Both the position numbers and the translations under genes were made by a program. A DNA stretch of 47,802 bases from a virus. The notes below the pieces were generated by a model, which did no database searches, was not told where the DNA came from, and saw nothing but the letters and a program-made list of their open reading frames with translations. The stretch lies in IMG/VR virus record IMGVR_UViG_3300048527_000022, positions 1-47,802 of that record; one strand, given 5' to 3'. Of this stretch, positions 2,936 to 37,587 are shown one piece after another (within the stretch, counting starts at the first letter, position 1; every line of letters begins with the position of its first letter).

Positions 2936-3058
2936 ATGAGAAAGAAAGGTAGGTCTTATATATTATTACCACTGTTAGCTATTTCTATAAATGAAGATGG
3001 TGATAAAGAAATAATGTTCGGATGGTTTAATTATACATGGAGCATTATATTCAATTAA
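2936..3058 (+). CDS. Microprotein, 40 aa
   Basis: A short ORF beginning 3 bases after the upstream stop: basic start MRKKGRS, hydrophobic YILLPLLAISI, then an acidic turn and an aromatic tail (GWFNYTWSIIFN). It may be a single-pass membrane peptide. Support is from position, direction and the regular spacing; there is no family assignment. Confidence 0.45.
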   Translation: MRKKGRSYILLPLLAISINEDGDKEIMFGWFNYTWSIIFN

Positions 3059-3061
3059 AAT

Positions 3062-3135
3062 CTTTTCTGTATTCTTGTTACGTTGGAATAACTAACGAGA
3101 AATGATTGACTGACGTAACAAGATGCAGAGAAAAG
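3062..3135 (+). terminator. Large imperfect hairpin before the tRNA-like cluster
   Basis: An 11-bp perfect stem TCTTGTTACGT (3073-3083) / ACGTAACAAGA (3113-3123) is extended by CTTTTCT (3062-3068) / AGAAAAG (3129-3135) across an internal loop. There is no clear U-tract, so it may be a processing or insulating structure between the lipoprotein transcript and the tRNA-like genes rather than a simple terminator. Confidence 0.5.
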
Positions 3136-3140
3136 GGAAT

Positions 3141-3264
3141 AGTCAGGTGGTGGAATTGGTATACACTAAAAAACTGTACTGAGGTTAAGCGATCCTCACG
3201 TTAATAAAAAAATTGATCAGCGCAGAAGTGCGGTAGCTTACAGGTTCGAATCCTGTCCTGACTA
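3141..3264 (+). tRNA. tRNA-like gene 1, class II (Leu-type D arm), anticodon unclear
   Basis: The acceptor arms AGTCAGG (3141-3147) and CCTGACT (3257-3263) form 7 perfect pairs, with discriminator A at 3264. The D arm GTG-GAATTGGTATA-CAC has the GGTGGnGGAATTGG signature of leucine tRNAs. The T arm is ACAGG-TTCGAAT-CCTGT. At 124 nt it is too long for a normal class II tRNA. The middle holds a stem TGAGG-(9-nt loop TTAAGCGAT)-CCTCA and another, CGCA-GAAG-TGCG, separated by A/T-rich sequence, with no clean 5-bp/7-nt anticodon arm. It could contain an unusual insertion or be a tRNA mimic. CCA is not encoded. Confidence 0.55.
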
Positions 3265-3299
3265 CACTTACCTATCCGAAGGTTATGATGAAGCATCTT

Positions 3300-3334
3300 G
3301 TACCGTATGTTCATAAAGTAGATAGGAACGGTAC
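3300..3334 (+). repeat. Spacer inverted repeat GTACCGT/ACGGTAC
   Basis: GTACCGT (3300-3306) and ACGGTAC (3328-3334) form a perfect 7-bp stem in the spacer between tRNA-like genes 1 and 2, ending 5 bases before the second gene. It may be a processing structure. Confidence 0.5.
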
Positions 3335-3339
3335 TATTT

Positions 3340-3434
3340 AGTCAGGTGGCGGAATTGGCGAAACGATATACCGTGTACGGTTAGAGGCAAACGGAAATAA
3401 GTCCTTCTTGCAGGTTCGAATCCTGTCCTGACTA
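3340..3434 (+). tRNA. tRNA-like gene 2, class II (Leu-type D arm), anticodon unclear
   Basis: Both ends are identical to tRNA-like gene 1: AGTCAGG (3340-3346) with CCTGACT (3427-3433), discriminator A 3434, the GGTGGCGGAATTGG D-arm signature, and T arm GCAGG-TTCGAAT-CCTGT. The length of 95 nt fits a class II tRNA. A short variable-arm stem GGA-AATAAG-TCC is possible. The expected anticodon arm is replaced by ACCG-TGTA-CGGT, only 4 pairs with a 4-nt loop, so the amino acid cannot be read. Gene 1 and gene 2 look like diverged duplicates with conserved ends and unrelated cores. Confidence 0.55.
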
Positions 3435-3491
3435 CGGAGAAACAGCAATCTCCCAATATGGCATCCAGTCCGTTAATCTGGAGAATCTGCT

Positions 3492-3511
3492 TGACAGCTG
3501 GAAAGACAGCA
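3492..3511 (+). repeat. 20-base repeat, copy 2
   Basis: Exact second copy of tgacagctggaaagacagca (first at 1692-1711), here ending 5 bases before the 5' end of tRNA-like gene 3. The surrounding spacer also has short hairpins GGAGA/TCTCC and CCAG/CTGG. Confidence 0.65.
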
Positions 3512-3515
3512 ATTT

Positions 3516-3620
3516 GATCAAGTAGCATAAAACCAGGATACAGACTGATAACGTGTACACCTGTAGGTAATGCAATTAACGCTTAATTAATGGATGATGG
3601 TTCGAACCCATTCTTGATCA
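3516..3620 (+). tRNA. tRNA-like gene 3, anticodon unclear
   Basis: GATCAAG (3516-3522) pairs perfectly with CTTGATC (3613-3619); discriminator A 3620; T arm GATGG-TTCGAAC-CCATT. An AATTAA-CGC-TTAATT stem sits where a class II variable arm would be. The remaining middle folds best as one long hairpin (GCAT...ATGC, ACC...GGT, TACAG...CTGTA) with no ordinary D arm. A CTGATAA stretch inside it would make a good tRNA-Ile(GAU) loop, but its flanks pair poorly (3 of 5). Length 105 nt. It is tRNA-derived or tRNA-like; decoding ability is unproven. Confidence 0.5.
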
Positions 3621-3723
3621 CTATGTGTGCACAGTTAATAGATCTGGCTTATTAAAACTATTATTCCTCAGCATGAATTAAAACTGCTTTTTAAATTATT
3701 TATTCAAACAATCAATTAAAGAC

Positions 3724-3927
3724 ATGAAATTATTAATACAATTACTCGTAACACTATCTGTTACATTCTTTGTAGGATATTTAATTGGATCATTTGTCTA
3801 TTGGGACTTCAATGGTGGTAATTGGCCTTTAGAGGGCAGACAAATACTTGCGGTAGCAATAGGTTTTACTACTTGCATTGTAGCAATGGGTATAATATCT
3901 AATAAAAGTGAATACAAATATTTTTAA
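3724..3927 (+). CDS. Membrane protein, two transmembrane segments, 67 aa
   Basis: Not recognised. Two hydrophobic segments (LLIQLLVTLSVTFFVGYLIGSFV and ILAVAIGFTTCIVAMGII) are joined by an exposed loop, YWDFNGGNWPLEGRQ, with a lysine-containing C-terminal tail. The ATG follows an A-rich leader (aattaaagac). First gene after the tRNA-like cluster, followed by another membrane microprotein. Confidence 0.65.
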   Translation: MKLLIQLLVTLSVTFFVGYLIGSFVYWDFNGGNWPLEGRQILAVAIGFTTCIVAMGIISNKSEYKYF

Positions 3928-4191: not shown

Positions 4192-4485
4192 ATGGAAATA
4201 TTAAAACACGGAGATGAAGTTAGATTTAGAGTTGGTGATATAGTGCTAGGCTATAAAGTACGAGATGATCATATGTATTCTACTGATTTGTATGATAATC
4301 ATGTAGTATTTGAAAAGCTTGGTTTAAATGAAGCTCAGAAAAAAGATTTAGCTACTCATTACTATGGTTACGCACAAACTGGTGGTGATTGGCCATATTA
4401 TCGTAGAAATGATTACAAAGCTGCTACAGAATTAGTTAAAGCTGTACATGATTTATGTAATAAGTATAATTTAGAACACACATGA
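4192..4485 (+). CDS. Hypothetical protein, 97 aa
   Basis: Not recognised. A beta-rich N-terminus (EILKHGDEVRFRVGDIVLGYKVRDD) precedes a helical C-terminal half (LNEAQKKDLATHYYGY, DYKAATELVKAVHDLCNKYN). It looks like a small soluble single-domain protein. Its stop overlaps the start of the next gene (ATGA type), so they are translationally coupled. Confidence 0.65.
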   Translation: MEILKHGDEVRFRVGDIVLGYKVRDDHMYSTDLYDNHVVFEKLGLNEAQKKDLATHYYGYAQTGGDWPYYRRNDYKAATELVKAVHDLCNKYNLEHT

Positions 4486-7859: not shown

Positions 7860-8722
7860 TGCGTATAGTCAAAGAAGAGAAGAAAATTCTTCACATGCAT
7901 TTTGATTCTGTAGATGATTTCTTTCAACACAGTAATGCAAAAGAGCTTTATGAAAAAGGTGTAGACCATTTACCTGATCGTAATAGAACTCACATTAGAG
8001 AAATCGCTAAAGGAGATGAAAAGAGTTGGCGATATGCAGAGGAGAAAAACAAAGATCAGTTTGAGAAGACTAGATTTGATCCTACTAAAGGTAAGAAAAT
8101 GTGTTCAGATGCTGTTAAATCAACCATGGCTGATAGAAGCTATAAAAAGTTGATGGCTAATGCTATGACATATCGTAGAAAACCTAAGTTTCAGGATGTA
8201 GGATCTAGACTATCTGTCCCACGAGCTATAGCTGGTGAGGATAAATACTTTGTTAGTCTCAAGGCTGCAAGAAAACCAACAGTGAAGATTGCTATTAACA
8301 TTTGTGGGAGTGCAAGTGTTAATGCAGAAGCGTTTGCTAGAGTGGCACAAACAGCTATTCCAACTATTTATGCATTGGAACAAGCTGGTATCACCACTGA
8401 GGTGTATTATTGTGCATTCTCATCTGGAACTCATAATGGTTTCAAACACAGTCAACTAGCTGTAAGAGTTAAATCAGCCCAACAACGATTCTCATGGACA
8501 TTATTTGCTCCAGTGTTTTGTGTTGGTAGTTATAGAGATAACATCTTTACAGCATGGAGTAATTGTGAAATTGGAACTGATTATGGTTTAGGTAGACCAA
8601 TGACACAGGAAGATATCGAGAAGAATGGTAACTTCGGATATGATTCTGTAATTGGTTTAAATGCTGTAGGTCCAGTAGAGAATGTAGGCTCTATTTTTAG
8701 TAAAATAAAGCTTAAAAAGTAA
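7859..8722 (+). CDS. VWA-like partner of the AAA+ ATPase (CobT-like), 287 aa
   Basis: It starts inside the stop of the ATPase gene (TAATG), so the pair is made together. After a basic, helical N-terminal half, residues ~141-260 have the layout of a von Willebrand factor A domain as in CobT-type partners: a strand KIAINICGSAS, helix, strand TTEVYYCAFSSG and further strands. The metal site motif DxSxS is replaced by N147-x-C149-x-S151, so normal MIDAS metal binding is doubtful. MoxR-VWA pairs act as chaperone or chelatase-type machines; here the target may be a phage or host complex. Assignment rests on fold pattern and gene pairing. Confidence 0.6.
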   Translation: MRIVKEEKKILHMHFDSVDDFFQHSNAKELYEKGVDHLPDRNRTHIREIAKGDEKSWRYAEEKNKDQFEKTRFDPTKGKKMCSDAVKSTMADRSYKKLMANAMTYRRKPKFQDVGSRLSVPRAIAGEDKYFVSLKAARKPTVKIAINICGSASVNAEAFARVAQTAIPTIYALEQAGITTEVYYCAFSSGTHNGFKHSQLAVRVKSAQQRFSWTLFAPVFCVGSYRDNIFTAWSNCEIGTDYGLGRPMTQEDIEKNGNFGYDSVIGLNAVGPVENVGSIFSKIKLKK

Positions 8723-9501: not shown

Positions 9502-10002
9502 ATGGGATATCAACCTGTAAAACTAATCTACAACTCATTTCAGCCTCCACAATTGGAGGTTGGAATGCTGTTTGCTATGAATGTCACTATAAATGAGCAT
9601 TCATACTTGCATTTGAGAAAGCTTGAGAAGCTACCACGGGATATTGAAGAATATCTACAGCATAACGGACTACCTGTTAAGCCTTATTTTATTAGATCTA
9701 TAGATTCTAATCCAGATGTTGCACCAGAGGTGGTAGCATATCCAGATCAAATTGCATATTATGAGCAAGATGGTCAACTGTTTGATTTTACAGTTGATGA
9801 CATGAACTACATTAATATAGAAGATGATGGATATATCGGATTATACTTTGATGATGAAACAAACCAACCTGTATTAGAGGATGGTCGTGTTGTAGTCACA
9901 TCAATGGATAATATATTCGATGCAGATGATGAAGATTGGGAAGAACACGATCTAATTGATGATTGGGACGTTACATTACAAGACGGTTTAGAAGAACTAT
10001 AG
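9502..10002 (+). CDS. Hypothetical strongly acidic protein, 166 aa
   Basis: Not recognised. The N-terminal ~90 residues look globular; the C-terminal ~80 residues are extremely acidic (DDMNYINIEDDGYIGLYFDDE, then FDADDEDWEEHDLIDDWD). Such acidic proteins can mimic DNA, and phage DNA mimics inhibit host nucleases, but that is only a possibility here. It starts one base after the previous stop codon. Confidence 0.65.
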   Translation: MGYQPVKLIYNSFQPPQLEVGMLFAMNVTINEHSYLHLRKLEKLPRDIEEYLQHNGLPVKPYFIRSIDSNPDVAPEVVAYPDQIAYYEQDGQLFDFTVDDMNYINIEDDGYIGLYFDDETNQPVLEDGRVVVTSMDNIFDADDEDWEEHDLIDDWDVTLQDGLEEL

Positions 10003-10006
10003 ACTT

Positions 10007-10546
10007 ATGTTAAAGCACACATACATGGATGCTGCCCAGAAGAAAGCAGTAAGAGAGTTCTTAATAGGACACTTTAAGTTTAAGAACATAGTTGGACTAG
10101 CAGGTCCTGATATCAATGAGTACATTGAGTGGTGTAAAGCCAAAGGTTACAATGAGTTTGAAATATTTGAAGCAGATCCCTCTACAATGGTGTCACAACT
10201 TGCTAAACTAAATCAGAAAGTAAGAATGACATTTACGTATGGAGATATTCTAAAAGCAGATTCATCAAAAGAAGATACATTGTATGATCTTGATTTCTGT
10301 GCTAGTGTTCGTTATTTAAGAGAACATATAGCCAAATTCAAAGACCATTTTATTATGACGTTTAGCACAAGAATCGGTATCCAGGAAACTATAGATACAT
10401 TCTTCAGTGCAAGAAATGAGAAAATAATAAAATCAGAGGAAGTGTTCGAACCTCTACCACATACAGTGTTTACAACAGAACAAGGTAATTATTTATTCAT
10501 CAAGTATTGTGACACATCAGCAATGTGTTGCTTTGCAAAAATCTAA
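10007..10546 (+). CDS. Possible Rossmann-fold (methyltransferase-like) protein, 179 aa
   Basis: It begins with a helical segment, then a strand-turn KNIVGLAGPD resembling motif I of class I SAM-dependent methyltransferases, a helix, a second strand ending in an acidic residue (FEIFEADPS), then YGDIL and YDLDFCASVRYL where motifs II-IV would lie, and a C-terminal strand pair. There is no clear catalytic NPPY/DPPY motif, so a DNA adenine methylase is unlikely. Function remains uncertain; the Rossmann call is moderate. Confidence 0.45.
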   Translation: MLKHTYMDAAQKKAVREFLIGHFKFKNIVGLAGPDINEYIEWCKAKGYNEFEIFEADPSTMVSQLAKLNQKVRMTFTYGDILKADSSKEDTLYDLDFCASVRYLREHIAKFKDHFIMTFSTRIGIQETIDTFFSARNEKIIKSEEVFEPLPHTVFTTEQGNYLFIKYCDTSAMCCFAKI

Positions 10547-37511: not shown

Positions 37512-37516
37512 ATTTG

Positions 37517-37587
37517 CACACCCTAAAGGATTCGAACCTCCACTAACGGTGTTGGAGACCGTTGTGCTACCGTTACACTAAAGATGC
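37517..37587 (-). tRNA. tRNA-Trp (anticodon CCA)
   Basis: On the - strand the sequence folds as a standard cloverleaf: acceptor GCATCTT with AGGGTGT (with G-T pairs), D arm GTG-TAACGGTAG-CAC, anticodon arm ACGGT-CTCCAAC-ACCGT with anticodon CCA, T arm GGAGG-TTCGAAT-CCTTT, discriminator G. CCA end not encoded. Positions 37517-37587, 71 nt. Confidence 0.93.

Follow-up and report, generated by a model that had tools for sequence, protein, structure and literature searches.

The window, a 47.8-kb virus record from IMG/VR (whose contigs are predicted viruses), contains three tRNA-like genes at 3141-3264, 3340-3434 and 3516-3620, which are probably non-decoding RNAs built as a tRNA shell around a payload. 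The shell would comprise the acceptor stem, D-arm and T-arm, and the payload would replace the anticodon and variable arms, sometimes together with a D-loop hairpin. Comparison with other viral contigs suggests a phage RNA class that is widespread and as yet undescribed. Shine-Dalgarno-like motifs were found in 0/26 of the window genes checked, a pattern as in Bacteroidota phages that suggests a Bacteroidota host for this phage. The features of the region are as follows.

3063-3132, + strand: 23-bp hairpin directly 5' of gene 1 (folding z = -6.3, 0/200 shuffles as stable)
3141-3264, + strand: gene 1, tRNA shell with a putative core-family-1 payload (RF00005, 35.2 bits; R1 match inside)
3169-3234, + strand: core-1 payload of gene 1, AAAAACUGN - P1 - ACGUUAA - A-tract - P2 (covariance model R1, 83.6 bits, the window sequence itself being part of the model; 30 distinct homologues)
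3180-3198, + strand: P1 hairpin TGAGG...CCTCA (compensatory changes in 3/5 pairs; 100% of cells paired)
3221-3232, + strand: P2 hairpin CGCA-GAAG-TGCG (100% of cells paired)
3265-3339, + strand: spacer RNA between genes 1 and 2 (crossing complementary segments read from the sequence; 96% identical in L242)
3340-3434, + strand: gene 2, shell as in gene 1, core without homologue (RF00005, 29.0 bits)
3516-3620, + strand: gene 3, tRNA-like, acceptor GATCAAG (RF00005, 43.1 bits; anatomy; shorter gene at the same site in L211)
3529-3569, + strand: extended 41-nt D-loop in gene 3, with the usual GGTA at its end (anatomy)
3621-3716, + strand: conserved non-coding trailer (89-94% identical over 80-95 nt in L125, L126, L150, L201, L205 and L211)

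The ends of the three genes are as an earlier note on this DNA had described them, with the same coordinates, perfect 7-bp acceptor stems, discriminator A, and the T loops TTCGAAT, TTCGAAT and TTCGAAC in genes 1, 2 and 3, respectively. Genes 1 and 2 have a common acceptor (AGTCAGG/CCTGACT) and a Leu-type D-arm around unrelated cores, and the third acceptor pair is U-A in all three genes, i.e., the G3-U70 alanine identity pair is absent. A canonical anticodon arm (5-bp stem, 7-nt loop, U33) is missing from genes 1 and 2, in agreement with the note's claim that no clean 5-bp/7-nt arm forms; for gene 3 the claim did not hold, as ATTAA-CGCTTAA-TTAAT at 3575-3591 makes such an arm, with G and not U at position 33.

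All three genes score at or above the Rfam tRNA cutoff of 29 bits. None of them was called by ARAGORN in a default run on the window, and with introns or relaxed scores the program gave conflicting identities for the same gene: Tyr with a 32-nt intron for gene 1, Gly with a 9-nt intron or Tyr for gene 2, and Tyr with an intron or Lys for gene 3. With these contradictory fits, removal of a single insert yields no normal anticodon arm of stable identity. Searches of the window for tmRNA (covariance model or ARAGORN) and for GOLLD/ROOL (Rfam) found no match, and no HDV-type ribozyme was detected with the Rfam models. In 3000-3760, RF02553 (YrlA/Y RNA) gave no hit at E = 5 or below. The longest matches of the three cores complementary to the phage's own genome were at or near the shuffle level. 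The only conventional tRNA in the window is a tRNA-Trp(CCA) at 37516-37587 on the minus strand.

At least 120 viral contigs of IMG/VR contain the 5' end of genes 1 and 2 (AGTCAGGTGGYGGAATTGG), and in most cases a matching T-arm and acceptor close the structure around a core of about 20-110 nt. This recurrence of the same ends around unrelated cores marks the arrangement as more than chance. When the fetched loci were scanned with looser criteria, 217 distinct genes were obtained; they fall into 178 core clusters, most of which are singletons. One 14-kb locus has as many as 13 tRNA-like genes, and in some phages such genes lie beside large sets of ordinary tRNAs. AGTCAGG was the seed of the scan, which makes the frequency of this acceptor a selection effect; acceptor diversity was judged instead from the core-based search described below.

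A canonical anticodon arm was present in 3/173 non-redundant representatives, where shuffled cores would give 1.8, and the same test was passed by 140 of the 182 ordinary ARAGORN tRNAs in the same loci (those without an AGTCAGG/GGTCAGG end). These counts favour non-decoding tRNA mimics, one of the readings offered in the earlier note. A73 and the Leu-type D-arm were found in 159/178 representatives, while CCA is encoded directly after the discriminator in 7/178 and a single C stands there in most. Some relatives have degenerate T loops (L257, L261 and L211), and ARAGORN calls on relatives included Ile, Ser, Tyr and others. Mean folding z against dinucleotide shuffles was -0.77 for the cores, -0.26 and -0.33 for the flanks and -0.06 at 2 kb distance. 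Core identity was 52-100% (median 85%) in 38 pairs, drawn from 20 core clusters, in which the 100-nt flanks on both sides were at chance identity. No recurrent linked protein partner was found, the most widespread protein cluster being near 9/162 loci.

Core 1 is a ~66-nt motif that was found in ~35 distinct viral contexts when the core motif of gene 1 was searched alone. Homologues with the same core, whose existence had been left as a question, are thus present for gene 1; for gene 2 there are none, as local BLAST returned shell matches only. An alignment of 30 distinct sequences contains two hairpins with compensatory changes, and a third helix from the P1 loop to the joining strand (a pseudoknot) has partial support, with 61% of cells paired. 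The most strongly coupled columns, 9 and 64, form a tertiary pair that is Watson-Crick in 28/30 sequences and that in gene 1 joins the P2 loop base 3226 with 3177. The covariation score was 0.365, compared with 0.136 +/- 0.016 for shuffles, an excess that may partly stem from relatedness, and with at most 0.104 when the partners were slid, a control that keeps relatedness. Core 1 is compact, has many invariant bases, and matched no family in Rfam 15, including no ribozyme or riboswitch. As the alignment shows, the core 1 payload is a conserved fold that includes a probable pseudoknot.

At least ten acceptor stems were found around core 1 (AGTCAGG, GGTCAGG, AGCAAGG, TGCAAGG, AGTTAGG, GAGCAAG, GGCTGAG, TGAGTAG, AACGCAG and TGCGTAG), and the 3' side matches each of them through compensatory changes, bar a few first-pair exceptions. 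T-stem pairs of these shells also change together, and T, G or C may replace A as the discriminator. Comparison of the shells shows that they are under selection for base pairing. Core 1 also stands on a plain helix without a tRNA in three contexts, namely MT835839 (a human-gut phage contig), L247/L270 and L273, and within degenerate tRNA-like bodies in L257 and L261. An extra D-loop hairpin is present in the core-1 shells of L253, L267, L271 and L274, and inserts of this kind were found with other core families in L206 and L207. The core and downstream spacer of L242 are almost identical to those of the window, and L242 carries a D-loop insert that is absent in the window. A second core family, found in nine contigs, behaves in the same way on a smaller scale, and in L275 it has a different acceptor and a D-loop hairpin. 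Because the same core sits in many acceptor stems and on a plain helix, the tRNA body can be regarded as an interchangeable shell and the core as its payload; comparison shows them to be separable modules, of which the payload can stand on a plain helix. In MT835839.1, a tRNA with anticodon loop CTA, an apparent amber suppressor, lies ~190 nt upstream of the helix-mounted core 1 (L245, 40-111).

The 23-bp hairpin at 3063-3132 is identical in the relative L205, where it precedes a different core. Within the spacer between genes 1 and 2, CCTATC (3271-3276) pairs with GATAGG (3321-3326) and GTACCGT (3300-3306) with ACGGTAC (3328-3334); these crossing segments are a possible pseudoknot, and the overall fold is unexceptional (z = -0.6). 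An independently conserved core is lacking in genes 2 and 3. The trailer at 3621-3716, possibly a structured RNA or a 3' end signal, bounds a variable site in the relatives. At this site the acceptor of the L201 gene is GAACAAT, L205 combines an AGTCAGG gene of different core with an HNH endonuclease gene, L211 has the short version of gene 3, and L150 a further AGTCAGG gene; comparison of these contigs establishes a rapid turnover of RNAs at a defined site. The HNH endonuclease gene (Pfam HNH_3; L205, 7060-7474) lies inside the variable RNA site, adjoining the tRNA-like gene, and may help tRNA-like genes move. A protein encoded from 4407 onwards in L012 resembles a GIY-YIG homing endonuclease by eye and was found near tRNA-like genes in four loci. 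The neighbouring protein of the window (4192-4485), used as a search handle, gave no relatives.

Outside these phages, neither the shell nor core 1 was found in 396 genomes from the phylum to which MAG L213 belongs (presumably Bacteroidota); as these are sampled genomes searched by exact patterns, divergent host copies could be missed. The plasmids searched gave no match, and the named phages had no shell match, with core 1 carried by MT835839 as described above. Of 11 shell-pattern matches in genome contigs, the one in Flavobacterium stagni seems to fall within a coding gene, and several more come from MAG contigs on which such tRNA-like genes are present. A host origin of the shell was considered and rejected in view of its absence from the 396 genomes and the apparently coding match in Flavobacterium stagni. 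A literature search, with most subscription papers outside its scope, found no description of such RNAs.

By analogy with tRNA biology, host RNase P and RNase Z would cut the ends and CCA would be added, resulting in a stable RNA. The payload might, more tentatively, act in trans through binding to a host protein or RNP; in that case its most likely role would be to inhibit a factor of defence or translation or to serve as its decoy. Such a role would explain payload diversity, phage restriction and exchange between phages. Counted in favour of a putative effector role were the phage restriction in the collections searched, the lack of a protein partner and of self-antisense, the diversity of the cores, and the known part of phage tRNA loci in counter-defence (PMC13096335). 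The genes may belong to a large, phage-restricted class of natural tRNA-scaffolded effector RNAs, whose hypervariable, horizontally exchanged payloads would inhibit or mislead host factors, and these might be regarded as the RNA counterpart of anti-defence proteins.

Other explanations have to be weighed against the shell-and-payload reading. It is unlikely that only the shell matters, with tRNA mimics that punctuate a non-coding transcript of the phage for RNase P/Z or protect its ends while the cores drift freely. The extreme core diversity, mostly as singleton clusters, and the well-kept, covarying shells would fit this idea, but core 1 is conserved and covarying, has a tertiary pair and also occurs outside tRNA shells, and cores are retained where flanks diverge. 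Payloads that are small ribozymes or ligand-binding, riboswitch-like RNAs are improbable as well: there is no Rfam ribozyme or riboswitch match and no recurring downstream gene, and the closed shells have no obvious expression platform, although core 1 has a compact, pseudoknotted form in which many bases are invariant and theta ribozymes adjoin phage tRNAs (PMC10879173). If instead the shell were active, charged or EF-Tu-bound tRNA decoys would titrate a synthetase or a tRNA-attacking defence enzyme, and the core would only remove decoding. The prevalence of the Leu-type D-arm and A73 (159/178) is consistent with this, as is the use of phage tRNAs against tRNA-cutting defences (PMC13096335); however, acceptor stems differ widely around one core, the discriminator varies, no synthetase identity is kept and the core is also found without a shell, which makes an active shell quite unlikely.

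The two remaining readings had both been raised in the earlier note and fared worse. Genes for tRNAs that are decaying, or debris of recombination, with the ends preserved in either case, would account for degenerate members, such as L257 and the short gene of L211, and for the homing-type endonuclease genes among the tRNA-like genes, but are very unlikely given the perfect covarying shells and the conserved cores across many phages. For gene 1 decay is contradicted by a core conserved with covariation in ~35 contexts, in several shells or none, which leaves gene 2 and other singletons as the only genes to which it could apply. A reading as ordinary intron-containing tRNAs, or as decoding tRNAs of an unusual kind, is scarcely credible. 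The RF00005 matches, the introns that ARAGORN can fit and the 5-bp/7-nt arm of gene 3 speak for it, but the fits for one gene contradict each other, the supposed Tyr anticodon of gene 1 (GTA) varies to GCA and GGA, changing together with the P2 loop, and relatives with ~20-nt cores hold no anticodon arm to restore.

Several known systems resemble the shell-and-payload genes in part. They share with class II tRNA-Leu (RF00005) the acceptor stem, D-arm signature, T-arm, A73 and a score above cutoff, but have no usable anticodon arm, their cores vary in length and sequence, their D-loops can be extended, and in the genomes searched no host tRNA has the shell sequence. tmRNA (RF00023) also has a tRNA-like end domain and a large non-tRNA insert replacing the anticodon arm, whereas the genes described here are much shorter, lack an RF00023 or ARAGORN tmRNA match and have no G3-U70 (U-A in gene 1). 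YrlA, a bacterial Y RNA (RF02553), joins a tRNA-like module to another structured domain; no RF02553 match was found in the region, and the acceptor end here is open, as in tRNA. The tRNA-Other of Bacillus cereus is a non-translating tRNA-like element proposed to be part of a regulatory RNA (PMC3399842), but it is one chromosomal gene, whereas the genes here form a hypervariable phage class whose payloads are interchangeable. Theta ribozymes and GOLLD/ROOL are structured non-coding phage RNAs, often near tRNA genes, that lie beside tRNAs or are large RNAs possibly with tRNAs in a linker (PMC10879173, PMC12286853), unlike the small folds seen here in place of the anticodon arm. Engineered tRNA scaffolds (PMC3753655) likewise carry a foreign structured RNA on a tRNA body, but are man-made, while the shells here are natural and diverse. 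None of the nearest ideas, i.e., tmRNA, YrlA, tRNA-Other and engineered scaffolds, consists of interchangeable payloads in interchangeable tRNA shells.

If a tRNA body serves in nature as interchangeable packaging for folded RNAs that are unrelated to one another, this would be a new principle of RNA architecture. The payloads would offer a ready set of candidate RNA effectors, and the question whether phages act on their hosts through small structured RNAs would become directly testable. Because ARAGORN skips such genes or assigns them arbitrary anticodons, tRNA counts and codon-compensation arguments for phages that carry them may be wrong.

Two further RNAs were found among the tRNA-like genes of relatives. 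In L207, a phage-encoded tmRNA (RF00023, 61.5 bits; 9619-10057, + strand) lies directly 3' of three tRNA-like genes. In L104, the orphan Rfam motif freshwater-1 (RF02979) was detected at 8501-8562 on the minus strand with 70 bits, just below cutoff, among the tRNA-like genes of a large phage and in a dense run of apparently structured RNAs; it is an orphan structured RNA of the same kind of phage RNA island, but was not seen inside a tRNA shell in L104 and is unrelated to core 1.
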